IMG/VR virus record: IMGVR_UViG_3300044618_000246
Location: 1 to 43,658 of that record
DNA from: a virus
Strand: one strand, 5' to 3'
Length of the DNA stretch: 43,658 bases
Position numbers and translations under genes: made by a program. The notes beneath the pieces are model-generated. The model was not told the DNA's origin. It saw only the letters and a program-made list of their open reading frames with translations, and did no database searches. Each line of letters starts with the position of its first letter. Within the stretch, counting starts at the first letter, position 1. Positions 23,552 through 29,662 of this stretch are shown here, piece by piece.

Positions 23552-23814
23552 CACCCGAGCAGAAGTGGCTTCTTATTTTTGGCAGTGGTTGGGTGGACTG
23601 GGTAGATGTACTCAACCATTCACACGACCTATTGTTCAATCAGATACCCCACGACAGTATAGAAATAGACCGACTAAGGCAACAAGTTAGATTGAAAACA
23701 AATGAACCTATCAGAGTACACATGGCCCCGCCCACCGGGGTTCGCACCATTCGAGCATCAGAAGACAACAGCAGAATTCTTGGCAGGGAACCCAAAAGCT
23801 TTCTGCTTCAATGA
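23548..23814 (+). CDS. Hypothetical protein overlapping the helicase start
   Basis: 88 residues starting MTPEQKWLLIFGSGWVDWVD, coupled by ATGA to the upstream gene. From 23702 to 23814 it runs out of frame over the first 113 bp of the helicase. The part up to about residue 55 is protein-like (Trp, Asp and a charged helix EIDRLRQQVRL); the rest reads as if out of frame with the helicase, so the natural C-terminus might be shorter in relatives. No family recognised. Confidence 0.45.
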   Translation: MTPEQKWLLIFGSGWVDWVDVLNHSHDLLFNQIPHDSIEIDRLRQQVRLKTNEPIRVHMAPPTGVRTIRASEDNSRILGREPKSFLLQ

Positions 23815-25105
23815 GCAAGGTACAGGTAAGACAGCGTCAGTGATTTGGGCTGTCGACTACCTGATGACCATTGGATTAGTGAAGCGTGTGTTAGTGATCT
23901 GCCCCTTGTCGATTATGAAGTCGGCATGGCAGAACGATTTGTTTAAGTTTGCAATTCACCGAACCGTATCAGTCGCTTATGGTGCGGCACGTAAGCGCAA
24001 GGAGATTGTGAATACCGGTGCCGAGTTCGTCATCATCAACTTCGATGGTGTCGGCATTGTTAAGAAAGAAATCATGGCGGGTGGCTTTGACCTCATCGTG
24101 GTGGACGAGGCATCAGCCTATAAGAATGTGCAGACCGAGCGTTGGAAAGACTTGCGCGACCTAACAAAAGTTATTAAGGGTCTGTGGATGTTGACTGGTA
24201 CGCCTGCCGCGCAGTCGCCTGTGGATGCTTACGGATTGGCAAAGCTTGTGAACCCCAAGGGTGTGTCACCTTTCTTTGGTCAGTTCCGCGACACAGTGAT
24301 GATGAAGCTGACTATGTACAAGTGGATACCCAAGCCAACGTCACAGCTCATCGTGCATAAAGCACTACAACCCGCCATCAGGTTTGAGAAAGCCGACTGC
24401 CTCGACTTGCCGCCTGTTACGTTTGTTGAGCGAGATGCACCATTGACACCGCAGCAACATAAGTTCTACACCATACTAAAGAAGCAGATGCTGATTGAGG
24501 CTGCTGGAGAAGAAGTAAGCGCAGTTAACGCTGCCGTTCAAATCAACAAACTTCTTCAAATAGCTGGAGGTGCGGTGTATACGGATACGGGCGAAGTGGT
24601 TGAGTTTGACGTGAGTAGCCGACTGAATGTGGTGCAGGAAGTCATTGAAGAGTCGAGCCACAAGGTGCTTGTGTTTGTTCCGTTCACGCACACCATCGAG
24701 TTGCTTGAGAAGCACTTAATTAAGAACGGCATCACATGTGACGTCATCAACGGGTCAGTGTCTGTAAACAAACGCTCTGATATTGTCAAGCACTTTCAAG
24801 AGCAAGCGGAACCGAAAGTGTTGCTGATACAACCAAAGGCGGCATCACACGGGTTAACTCTAACTGCCGCCAACACAATCATTTGGTATGCTCCATGCAC
24901 AAGTGTTGAAACGTACTTGCAAGCCAACGCACGTATCGACCGCCCGGGGCAAGTCAATAACATGACCATTGTGCATATCAAGGGTAGCCCCATCGAAGCC
25001 AAGATGTACTCGATGCTTCAAAACAACATCAACAACCATCAAAAAGTAATTGACTTGTACAAGCAAGAAATTTCTTCAGAAGATGTTGACATTGTCAAAA
25101 CTTAA
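23702..25105 (+). CDS. SNF2-family superfamily II helicase
   Basis: 467 residues. Motif I is FNEQGTGKTASVI, motif II VVDEASAYKN (DEAS), motif III WMLTGTPAAQSP, and motifs V-VI are near the end with QANARIDRPGQVNNMTIVHI, the Arg/Gly/Gln pattern of SNF2/Rad54-type translocases. The protein is the core motor without extra chromatin-type domains, as in T7-like and aquatic phages that use such helicases in replication. The ATG at 23702 is chosen because the first residues carry the Q-like motif PRPPGFAPFEHQKTTAEFL. Confidence 0.9.
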   Translation: MNLSEYTWPRPPGFAPFEHQKTTAEFLAGNPKAFCFNEQGTGKTASVIWAVDYLMTIGLVKRVLVICPLSIMKSAWQNDLFKFAIHRTVSVAYGAARKRKEIVNTGAEFVIINFDGVGIVKKEIMAGGFDLIVVDEASAYKNVQTERWKDLRDLTKVIKGLWMLTGTPAAQSPVDAYGLAKLVNPKGVSPFFGQFRDTVMMKLTMYKWIPKPTSQLIVHKALQPAIRFEKADCLDLPPVTFVERDAPLTPQQHKFYTILKKQMLIEAAGEEVSAVNAAVQINKLLQIAGGAVYTDTGEVVEFDVSSRLNVVQEVIEESSHKVLVFVPFTHTIELLEKHLIKNGITCDVINGSVSVNKRSDIVKHFQEQAEPKVLLIQPKAASHGLTLTAANTIIWYAPCTSVETYLQANARIDRPGQVNNMTIVHIKGSPIEAKMYSMLQNNINNHQKVIDLYKQEISSEDVDIVKT

Positions 25106-25113
25106 TATATAAT
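25086..25113 (+). promoter_or_regulatory. Predicted promoter of the structured leader
   Basis: TTGACA, 16-bp spacer, TATAAT: both hexamers match consensus. It overlaps the last codons of the helicase gene. The expected start is near 25120, exactly where the leader stem begins. Confidence 0.85.
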
Positions 25114-25119
25114 TTGAAT

Positions 25120-25222
25120 TGTGTGGTGCTAGTGGCTGACGGGTTAGCGCCGTTAGACTCTCCTTTCATTGCGGACAAAGCGCTAAAAAACACTGCTTTA
25201 TGTGAACCGCTAGCACCACACA
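25120..25222 (+). ncRNA. Structured 5' leader or small RNA closed by a 16-bp stem
   Basis: Bases 25120-25135 pair with 25207-25222: thirteen perfect pairs (TGTGTGGTGCTAG with CTAGCACCACACA) plus TGG with CCG. Inside, 25144-25150 (TTAGCGC) pairs perfectly with 25180-25186 (GCGCTAA), and CAC 191-193 can pair with GTG 202-204, giving a three-way junction. The element starts at the predicted transcription start and ends 7 bp before the aggaga ribosome site of the next gene. It could be a regulatory 5' UTR, a stabilising 5' stem, or a stand-alone small RNA. It is not a tRNA. No known RNA family recognised. Confidence 0.6.
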
Positions 25223-25240
25223 CCTTATTAGGAGAATCAG

Positions 25241-25663
25241 ATGGAAGAAGCACGAGACAGAATCACCCCGATGGACTTAGCCAAGCTAACGTCAATCTAC
25301 ATCAAGATCAGAGACAAGCGTGCCGAAAACAAGCGCATGTTTGAAGCTGAAGACACAGACCTCAAAGAGCAGATGGATGTTTTAGAAGCACAGATGCTCG
25401 ATGTATGCAAAGAGATGAATGCCGACAGCATTCGCACCCCACACGGCACGATTATTCGCTCAGTAAAGTCACGGTACTGGACGAACGATTGGGATTCAAT
25501 GTACGACTTCATAGAGGAGCATGGTGCATTTGGCCTGTTAGAGAAGAGACTTCACCAAACAAACATGAAGGACTTCCTCTCTGAGAATCCCACAGTTCTA
25601 CCACTTGGTCTCAATGTGGAGAATGCTTATACCGTGGTTGTTAGACGTTCTAAGGAAAAATGA
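25241..25663 (+). CDS. Gam-like protein (possible host nuclease inhibitor)
   Basis: 140 residues. The first 60 form a coiled-coil helix (LAKLTSIYIKIRDKRAENKR), followed by IRTPHGTIIRSVKSRYWTND and LPLGLNVENAYTVVVRRS, a layout that resembles Gam-like proteins of Mu type that bind double-stranded ends. This is a by-eye resemblance. aggaga precedes the ATG. It is the first gene after the structured leader at 25120 and is coupled by ATGA to an SSB-like gene, which fits a DNA-end protection role. Confidence 0.45.
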   Translation: MEEARDRITPMDLAKLTSIYIKIRDKRAENKRMFEAEDTDLKEQMDVLEAQMLDVCKEMNADSIRTPHGTIIRSVKSRYWTNDWDSMYDFIEEHGAFGLLEKRLHQTNMKDFLSENPTVLPLGLNVENAYTVVVRRSKEK

Positions 25664-26809: not shown

Positions 26810-29662
26810 ATGTCAACCTTCGATCTACTGGATACAGTACTGCCACCGGAAGGGCGCTACTGTGTGATGGGGATTGGTAGGTATCCTGACCAGCATTTTG
26901 TAGATACTAAAGAAGAGGTTGAAGAGTTAGCGCAGCGATTTGTTCAACGTAGGATTGACGCATACTTCGGTTGCGCCAAGTACGGCTCGTTAAACAACCG
27001 CACCCATGAGAATGCCAAATACTTCCGTGCTCTGTGGATGGACATTGACTGTGGCCCCACAAAAGGTGTACCCGACGAAAAAGGCATTATCAAAGGCTAT
27101 CTCGATCAGCAGATCGGACTCGATGAGTTCAAGAAGTTCTGCAGTGCAGTCGGCTTACCAAAGCCAATATTAGTTAGCTCCGGCTACGGCATTCATGCGT
27201 ACTGGTTGCTAGAAGAAACAGTGTCCCGCACCGAGTGGGAACCACTAGCCAATCGGCTTCGTGAGTTGTGCGTTGAGCATGGGTTAATTGTGGACTCCTC
27301 AGTCTTTGAGGCTTCACGTATCCTGCGCATCCCCGGCACATTCAACTTCAAACAAGAAGACGCCAAAGAGGTAACAGTACTAAACCAACTGACACCTCGC
27401 ATGACATACCAAGAGTTGAAAGACTTGCTTGGTGCGCCCGACCCGAAAGACGATGTACCCGACTTCATCCCGCGCTCTATGAGCCCGATGATGGAAGCAC
27501 TGATGGGCAACAAGGTCAAGCGGTTTAAGACGATCATGCTGAAAGGCGAGGCTGGGTGCGCCCAACTTAACCACTGCTTTGAAAATCAAAACAGCATTGA
27601 AGAACCATTGTGGCGATCCGCTCTTTCTATTGCAGCTTTCTGCGTAGATGGTGACAAAGCCGCGCACAAGTTATCTAGCGAACACGAAGGCTACGACCCA
27701 GTAGAAGTTGACAACAAGATCAATAACCTACGAAAGAAGGGTGGCCCACATCATTGCTCTACGTTTGCAAAACTCAACCCGCAAGGTTGTGAGGGTTGTA
27801 TCCACAGAGGCAAGATCAAGTCACCCATCATGCTCGGCGTTGAGATTGAAGAAGCCGATGCAGAAGACAATGAGTACGCCGTCGAGAGTGATGACGGTTC
27901 AGTAGAAATACAACAAATACCCGAGTATCCATTTCCGTTTTTCCGTGGCAAAAAAGGTGGTGTCTACATTCGCCCTGAGAGCGAAGATGCCGAAGCCGAG
28001 CCCAAACTTGTTTACGAGCATGACTTCTATGTGGTCAAGCGTATGCGTGACCCTGAGATTGGCGAAGTAGCTTTGTTCCGTTTGCACTTACCGCACGATG
28101 GCGTTAGAGAGTTCAGCATCTCCACGATGTCAATCTCGTCGCCTGATGAGTTGCGCAAACAGTTGGCACAGCATGGGGTCGTAGCCCACAAAACACAGTA
28201 CGAATTGCTTGCAAGGTATGTTGTTTTCTTTATAAAAAATTTGCAGTACGTTAGAAAGGCAGAGACCATGAGAACTCAGTTTGGTTGGGTCGAGGGGGAC
28301 AGCAAGTTCATCCTTGGCGATCGAGAAATTACAAAGGACGGAGTGTTTTACAGCCCCCCATCAAGCACCACAAAAGATGTAGCCGAGAAGATCATCCCCA
28401 AGGGTACGTTTGAGAAGTGGAAAGAAGCATTCAATATGTACGCTAGGCCGGGTCTTGAACCCCATGCGTTTGCCGCACTAACAGCGTTCGGCTCACCACT
28501 GTTGAAATTCACAGGGCTTGAAGGTGCGATCATTAACGTGATTCACCCCGAGTCAGGTTCGGGTAAGTCGACAGCGTTGTTTATGTGCAACAGTGTGTAT
28601 GGTCAGCCCAAAGAACTTACATCCATGTATAAGGATACGTTCAACGCAAAGATGCACCGACTCGGCGTGATGAACAATCTGCCCAATACGATTGACGAGA
28701 TCACCAACTTGAGCGGCATGGAGTTTTCAGACTTGGCTTACAGCATCTCCCAAGGGCGGGGCAAAGACAAGATGAAAGGCTCAACCAATGAGTTGCGTAT
28801 AAACAACACTAAGTGGCAAGGGATTACCCTATGTTCTGCAAACGCCAGCTTTTATGAGAAGTTAGGGGTAGCTAAGAACTCGCCAGATGGTGAGTCCATG
28901 CGTCTGCTTGAGTACAAGATTGAGCCTAACAGCATCATCGACGTGCAAGAAGGCAAGCAGATGTTTGACCATCAGATGCGCGAGAACTTTGGGCATGCTG
29001 GGGACATCTACATCCAGTGGCTTGTAAACAACTTAGAAGAAGCCATAGCTTTGATGCGTAAGGTTCAGGCTAGGATTGACCGAGAAGTTCAGTTCAACCA
29101 GAAAGAGCGCTTTTGGTCTGGTGTGTCTGCATGCAACATAGCCGGTGGTTTGATTGCCGGTAACTTGGGTCTGCACGACTACGACATGAAGGCAATCTAC
29201 GACTGGCTGAAAGACATGCTCGGCGACATGCGGTTTGAGATTCAACCACCAAACTCAACTCCGGTGACTATCCTTGGCGAGTTTGTGAACGCTCACATTA
29301 ATAATGCTTTGGTTGTAAATGGTGAGGTCGACGCTCGCAGTAACCTGCAGTCGATGCCCATGCTCGAGCCCCGTGGAGAGCTGCTCATACGCTACGAGCC
29401 AGATACCAAAGAACTTTTTATTGCAGCCAAGCAGTTCAAAGACTTCTGCGTCAAACAGCAGATCAACTACAAAACGACCTTGAAAGAATTGGGTAACGCC
29501 AAGATTTACGTTGAGGGTGTGAACAAGCGAATGTCCAAAGGCATGAAGATTGTTGCCCCTGCAGTTCGGGTGCTGAAGTTTGACGCATCCAACTCTGAGT
29601 TCTTACAAATGGATGCACTTGTGAGTACCGATGAAAATCGAGACAGTGTCGTATCAGATTGA
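26810..29662 (+). CDS. Primase-helicase: AEP-like primase fused to DUF927-type helicase
   Basis: 950 residues. The primase part has the AEP signatures: ALWMDIDCG (Asp78/Asp80 DxD), SSGYGIHAYW (His129) and DSSVFEASRILRIPGTFNFK (Arg near 170 and 173). A Cys/His cluster near 318-340 (HHCSTFAKLNPQGCEGCIHR) probably binds zinc. The helicase part has Walker A HPESGSGKSTA (579-589) and DEITNLSGMEFSDL (Walker B-like). It should make primers and unwind DNA for the polymerase at 19600. The fusion is common in phages that lack a DnaG-type primase. The C-terminal 250 residues are not recognised. Confidence 0.85.
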   Translation: MSTFDLLDTVLPPEGRYCVMGIGRYPDQHFVDTKEEVEELAQRFVQRRIDAYFGCAKYGSLNNRTHENAKYFRALWMDIDCGPTKGVPDEKGIIKGYLDQQIGLDEFKKFCSAVGLPKPILVSSGYGIHAYWLLEETVSRTEWEPLANRLRELCVEHGLIVDSSVFEASRILRIPGTFNFKQEDAKEVTVLNQLTPRMTYQELKDLLGAPDPKDDVPDFIPRSMSPMMEALMGNKVKRFKTIMLKGEAGCAQLNHCFENQNSIEEPLWRSALSIAAFCVDGDKAAHKLSSEHEGYDPVEVDNKINNLRKKGGPHHCSTFAKLNPQGCEGCIHRGKIKSPIMLGVEIEEADAEDNEYAVESDDGSVEIQQIPEYPFPFFRGKKGGVYIRPESEDAEAEPKLVYEHDFYVVKRMRDPEIGEVALFRLHLPHDGVREFSISTMSISSPDELRKQLAQHGVVAHKTQYELLARYVVFFIKNLQYVRKAETMRTQFGWVEGDSKFILGDREITKDGVFYSPPSSTTKDVAEKIIPKGTFEKWKEAFNMYARPGLEPHAFAALTAFGSPLLKFTGLEGAIINVIHPESGSGKSTALFMCNSVYGQPKELTSMYKDTFNAKMHRLGVMNNLPNTIDEITNLSGMEFSDLAYSISQGRGKDKMKGSTNELRINNTKWQGITLCSANASFYEKLGVAKNSPDGESMRLLEYKIEPNSIIDVQEGKQMFDHQMRENFGHAGDIYIQWLVNNLEEAIALMRKVQARIDREVQFNQKERFWSGVSACNIAGGLIAGNLGLHDYDMKAIYDWLKDMLGDMRFEIQPPNSTPVTILGEFVNAHINNALVVNGEVDARSNLQSMPMLEPRGELLIRYEPDTKELFIAAKQFKDFCVKQQINYKTTLKELGNAKIYVEGVNKRMSKGMKIVAPAVRVLKFDASNSEFLQMDALVSTDENRDSVVSD

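Follow-up and report, generated by a model that had tools for sequence, protein, structure and literature searches.

A structured operon leader behind a consensus promoter

The window, that is the whole 43,658-base virus record IMGVR_UViG_3300044618_000246, carries a gene for a SNF2-type helicase (PF00176) at 23702–25105 and, directly downstream of it, a folded RNA element that we call E. Behind E lies an open reading frame of 140 aa (25241–25663, on the plus strand like all parts of E), and farther downstream a DUF927 primase/helicase-like gene (26810–29662). The 140-aa protein, labelled "Gam-like" in the initial annotation, falls in PHROG 13900, a family labelled 'minor head protein', and gave no Pfam match.

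A consensus promoter with a transcript start near 25120 had been proposed at this site, and its elements could be read directly in the sequence: TTGACA as the −35 box (25086–25091), with a similar box in most of the relatives listed, and TATAAT as the −10 box (25108–25113), separated by 16 nt. These positions put the predicted +1 near 25120, where a 103-nt fold (25120–25222) opens 6 nt behind the −10 box. The fold is closed by a 16-bp stem, P1 (25120–25135 paired with 25207–25222), found by reading, folding and covariation, which ends 7 nt before the ribosome-binding site AGGAG (25230–25234; read in the sequence and kept in most leaders of relatives). Nested within P1 is a 7-bp helix, P2 (25136–25142 with 25150–25156; folding and covariation). 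Both stems correspond to those of the initial annotation. The fold energy was −46.8 kcal/mol; 200 dinucleotide shuffles gave −30.7 ± 3.3 (z = −4.83), and none of them was as good.

P2 carries the loop L2 (GUUAGCG, 25143–25149) and is followed by a spacer (25157–25190) that has no constant sequence and varies in length and sequence among copies. Comparison with relatives revealed two features that had been invisible at first: a small hairpin, P4, made of CAC (25191–25193) and GUG (25202–25204) around the loop L4 (UGCUUUAU, 25194–25201), and a contact, scored on the relatives, in which AGC of L2 (25146–25148) pairs with GCU of L4 (25195–25197). Of the three-way-junction-like architecture originally suggested, P1 with its nested P2 stands; the paired portion, however, is no simple three-way junction but comprises P1, P2, a small P4 and a lock between the two loops. 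The view that E is not a tRNA was borne out by ARAGORN, which found 0 genes in the window, and by the lack of an Rfam tRNA match on E. A tRNA-like cloverleaf with a 3' CCA-like tail was also considered and dropped; the spacer is without a constant arm and the tail varies.

An RNA family spread over many viral contigs

Relatives of the leader were collected with the 140-aa downstream protein as query. Among the best 80 of 596 viral loci, GGTTAGCG was present within 150 nt upstream of the gene in 66 and absent in 14; among the leaders listed, those with GGTTAGCG also had CTGCTTYATGTGAA, and differed among themselves in P1, P2 and the spacer. As used here, E names an RNA family of about 75–105 nt in which P1, of arbitrary sequence, closes P2, a variable spacer and a 3-bp P4, with the consensus loops GUUAGCG (L2) and UGCUUYAU (L4), AGC pairing with GCU.

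The pattern GGTTAGCG..CTGCTTYATGTGAA occurred in at least 119 stretches of viral contigs, and variant loop patterns in at least 120, 86 and 12 viral stretches, the loci being partly overlapping; a pattern search for a changed U of GCU found 0 viral stretches. A relaxed scan of 448 loci yielded 295 distinct copies with a P1 of at least 6 bp, or about 300 in uncultivated viruses. L2 was identical in 283 of these 295, a figure that overstates conservation, since most viral copies were fetched by patterns requiring the loop motifs. The protein-found set and the bacterial CM matches were not picked by exact motif, though the CM favours it.

Membership in known families was searched with Rfam 15 (4227 models). 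The whole window gave 0 matches at gathering score, and the E region alone, at E-values up to 10, gave two chance-level matches (14.7 and 11.7 bits against cut-offs of 50 and 34). In 17 loci, 5 matches were obtained, none at an E position, and a relaxed threshold on 12 Burkholderiales loci produced nothing convincing on E; an Hrs13 match over the L459 copy (23.3 bits against a cut-off of 52) was taken as chance. The GOLLD and ROOL models did not match in the window or the 17 loci at gathering score. On one virus contig, a Betaproteobacteria-1 RNA (RF02932, 90.6 bits; L119:1476–1593) lies about 200 nt behind E.

Named phages and plasmids gave no E by blastn with two typed queries and fetched copies, a weak absence given the low sensitivity of such searches for short motifs, and five named relatives, chosen by terminase, gave no CM match. 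One matching 17-mer, from Escherichia phage WFI101126, falls within an annotated ORF of the opposite strand and was put down to chance. In the open-licence literature, judged by title and start of abstract, no description of E was found, and the motif letters retrieved nothing related by title. E is apparently an undescribed RNA family, found in many phages and prophages of Burkholderiales, a large group of bacteria from water and soil.

Among small RNAs of phages, the stable RNAs C and D of T4, which are small, of no established function and encoded with tRNAs, resemble E by description alone. The abiF RNA and type III antitoxin RNAs are likewise small, structured, phage-linked RNAs, and bind protein; the abiF motif differs from E in measuring 36–37 nt and lying beside abiF genes (PMC12373285). 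Its model (RF03085) had no match in the window, the E region, the 17 loci or the 12 Burkholderiales loci.

Covariation supports the fold and the contact between its loops

In 25 dissimilar loci, P1 averaged 11.1 bp, against 5.3 bp when arms were swapped between loci, and P2 averaged 6.1 bp against 3.2 bp. Alignment A2 comprised 119 matches from 100 sources and was fitted to model R1; the fit favours P1 and P2, whereas P4, absent from R1, gains nothing from it. On A2, RNAalifold returned P1, P2 and P4 unprompted, with both-side changes in 14 of 18 pairs. Paired cells made up 91.5%, against 59.2% in shuffled and 35–52% in slid controls; cells changed on both sides numbered 662 against 186 shuffled; and the covariation score was 0.860, against 0.225 for shuffled and 0.07–0.22 for slid structures. 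Compensatory change among relatives, on which the initial annotation had staked its proposal, is therefore massive, and E is a real structured RNA. The stem cells of A2 also included 144 G-U against 14 A-C, which indicates that it is the plus-strand RNA that is under selection.

A second alignment, A3, comprised 53 matches (51 distinct rows) fitted to model R2, in which P4 is included and the loop-loop pairs are left out. One of its members, L557, is a false CM match without L4; it was kept in the covariation analysis and excluded from the loop count. Once the structure also specified P4 and the contact between the loops, 96.6% of cells were paired, with a score of 0.781 against 0.156. Two of the three P4 pairs had both-side changes on A3: the middle pair was A-U in 41 copies, C-G in 6 and G-C in 3, and the inner pair changed once from C-G to U-A. 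The three L2-L4 pairs were A-U (48) or G-C (2), G-C (50), and C-G (49) or U-G (1), so that both sides changed in one of three; this loop-loop covariation consists of two Burkholderiales copies (L461 and L462) plus one G-U change. Altogether, comparison of the copies shows a P1 of arbitrary sequence holding P2 and P4, whose loops L2 and L4 pair together.

Genomic contexts and copy number

The neighbours of E comprised 548 proteins in 168 clusters. By eye, the contexts included Gam-like or RecT-like leaders, RuvC/RusA-like resolvases, terminase subunits, a capsid gene and tRNA or tmRNA genes, the names being read from protein starts except for the window genes (family search) and the tRNAs. E adjoins tRNA or tmRNA genes in L104, L362 and L462, with phage tRNA genes directly downstream in L104 (3212–3377; Tyr and Thr) and L362 (2837–2911; Met). 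In L462, a phage-like stretch of genome G463, a tmRNA-like gene of the permuted or beta type (1039–1375) and a tRNA (1415–1487) adjoin E.

Fifty-nine viral records of at least 30 kb, chosen for holding E except for that of L072, contained it at an E-value of 1e-10 or better, CM E-values being rough; 51 had one copy, and in the eight with two the copies were never more than about 0.9 kb apart. In the L072 phage, E is missing at the Gam-like gene but occurs behind a capsid-like gene, where it has a −10-like box of its own. The argument for relocation leans largely on this single case. The records of the 14 relatives without E were mostly short fragments, and a second anchor search gave mostly the same ones. 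Eleven other records without E at the gene had no E anywhere, but are 4 to 22 kb long, and those of L062 and L064 (21 and 23 kb) were short too.

Further recurring modules were noticed as well. A second structured one, the helix module CAACACGCATGGRGATTG .. CAGTCYCCAGCCGTGTTGG (or near variants), contains an internal loop besides a variable insert and occurs at L137:8030–8170, L143:6370–6470, L106:13250–13500 and L153:4380–4480; in L137, E replaces its loop. A third, stem-closed module of approximately GCGGATGC .. GCAGCGAGTACC, which forms tandem arrays with E and with the helix module, lies near E in L362, L436, L439, L106 and L251. A noncoding stretch of approximately CCGTACTCCGCACGTTAGYAAGARCCTRYATGGG, possibly a larger noncoding RNA, is conserved behind a terminator-ended small RNA in L130, L085, L182, L143 and L169.

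Copies in Burkholderiales genomes

Across 84,980 species genomes of bacteria and archaea the exact pattern had 0 matches and a relaxed pattern had 5, in genomes titled beta proteobacterium, Burkholderiales, Curvibacter, Achromobacter or Variovorax. Model R2 detected E in 4 of 6 genomes of one genus, in 6 of 399 genomes of one family (query genome included), in 6 of 268 of a second family and in 1 of 229 of the class, this one being the query genome itself; an order gave 3 of 399, one of them the false L557. Since ORFs beside several bacterial copies resemble terminase, RecT, exonuclease and HNH genes, the bacterial copies are probably prophages, although one (L449) adjoins a gyrA-like gene. 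In Achromobacter dolens, two tandem copies stand 13 nt apart (L455:1501–1687); pairs of P2 and P4 are altered in the second.

Promoters and terminators around E

Transcription signals were surveyed in viral contexts, 146 dissimilar ones out of 284 usable copies. Of these, 30.8% had a −10-like box 4–8 nt before P1, against 4.8% of control windows, and a strong −10 box in 21.2% against 1.0%. Judged from these boxes, E would stand at the 5' end of a transcript in about a third of contexts. In 8.2%, P1 was directly followed by a T-run. Terminators within 70 nt behind E were not enriched (5, against 6 and 5 in controls), which argues that most viral copies are not closed small-RNA genes; just upstream of E there were 22, against 19 and 8. 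Among the Burkholderiales copies, whole or partial units of promoter, E and terminator were found in L453, L454, L459, L460 and L465. Of the two signals expected of a small-RNA gene, both could be read in several Burkholderiales copies, whereas viral contexts show the promoter in about a third and no excess of terminators.

Proposed role of E and alternative explanations

Our preferred reading, to which we give roughly even odds (about 0.48), is that E is a folded RNA domain with locked loops that acts in trans as a stable RNA and would be recognised by a conserved macromolecule, most likely one of the host. Trans action is our first choice because the gene contexts are unrelated and each genome usually has one locus, and the combination of near-invariant locked loops with free stems and spacer suits recognition by one partner. 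The locked L2-L4 pair would be the working surface, and the phage RNA might serve as a decoy, scaffold or inhibitor. In the phage of the window, the sigma-70-type promoter of E itself would make E as the first 103 nt of the operon leader, from which a cut within the AU-rich region ahead of the ribosome-binding site may free it; the paired 5' end would also protect the RNA. Of the three roles offered in the initial annotation, that of a phage-encoded small RNA is the best supported, by the unrelated locations, the usual single locus per genome and the promoter-E-terminator units of several Burkholderiales. A more specific and more tentative version has E as a previously undescribed RNA that phages share horizontally, its locked loops imitating or capturing a single conserved machine of Burkholderiales (RNA polymerase, ribosome, RNase or a defence nuclease), so that phages without relation to each other retain one locus at any place that suits it.

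The main rival is a cis-acting antiterminator that, like the put RNAs of HK022, would bind RNA polymerase as nascent RNA as the enzyme leaves the promoter, so that later terminators are read through. What keeps it in place is direction: the next long downstream ORF is co-directional with E in 113 of 129 contexts, compared with 88 of 142 for the upstream long ORF, a bias that suits a cis-acting leader and goes against trans action; the opposite orientation in the remaining 16 of 129 speaks against antitermination. That E is predicted to begin at +1 in roughly one of three dissimilar contexts fits as well, as does its position directly before an intrinsic terminator in L145, L459, L460 and L465. 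As described (PMC9378689), put RNAs are about 70 nt long, follow early promoters and need no protein, and putL and putR resemble E as phage RNAs that fold where an operon begins or close by. That account, however, presents them as two stem-loops in two copies at two early promoters and, as far as it goes, describes no lock like that between the P2 and P4 loops (PMC9378689), whereas within the window E stands at one promoter only, and elsewhere it also lies beside terminase and other packaging genes and tRNA genes. Compared by description and not by sequence, the position of E often fits that of a two-hairpin RNA behind an early promoter, but its fold differs, and we regard antitermination as unlikely, if the most serious competitor.

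Less likely still is a 5' or internal element of stability or processing, in which the 16-bp paired 5' end would block a 5'-sensing RNase E, or the fold would mark a cleavage site. P1 does start at the predicted +1, and several leaders without E (L062, L063, L065, L066 and L069–L072) retain the promoter together with a short hairpin where the transcript is predicted to begin. A plain hairpin would suffice for this purpose, however, and would not account for P4, the near-invariant loops or the lock between them, and many copies lie within arrays, away from a 5' end. The 5' stability element of the initial annotation may therefore survive as a side effect where P1 opens the transcript, in about a third of contexts, but it leaves the loops unexplained.

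It is quite improbable that L2 and L4 pair between molecules, so that E would assemble RNA-RNA complexes in the manner of phi29 pRNA, whose loops pair between molecules, or of GOLLD and ROOL cages. The covariation fits intra- and intermolecular pairing alike, and GOLLD and ROOL are phage or prophage RNAs without established function that often lie near tRNA islands and assemble by kissing loops (PMC12286853). By the same account both are ornate and GOLLD often exceeds 800 nt (PMC12286853), so E is far smaller than either, and its contact is of only 3 bp.

A ligand-sensing riboswitch of the downstream gene, another of the roles first suggested, finds very little favour here. The purine riboswitch aptamer, a closing helix with two hairpins joined by kissing loops, shares the topology of E, and in the window E has the position of a leader. 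Yet the conserved positions of E are in its loops and not in the junction, and a hidden ligand pocket was dropped because the junction linkers vary. Neither a consistent class of downstream gene nor a common expression platform was seen among the many contexts and 168 neighbour clusters, in which the genes behind E are unrelated. The remaining alternative, a DNA-level origin, packaging site or mobile hairpin with incidental RNA, would suit a single locus per genome in shifting places near terminase or recombination genes, but is largely refuted by the excess of G-U over A-C cells, a mark of one-strand RNA selection, and by promoters placing +1 at P1.

For the preferred trans-acting RNA, near-invariant loops on freely rewritten stems, kept at one locus in unrelated phages, suggest a single conserved host target. 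E would then offer a compact and easily mutated handle on host takeover by Burkholderiales phages, testable in a prophage. More generally, the noncoding stretches of uncultivated phages contain RNA families that current libraries miss.
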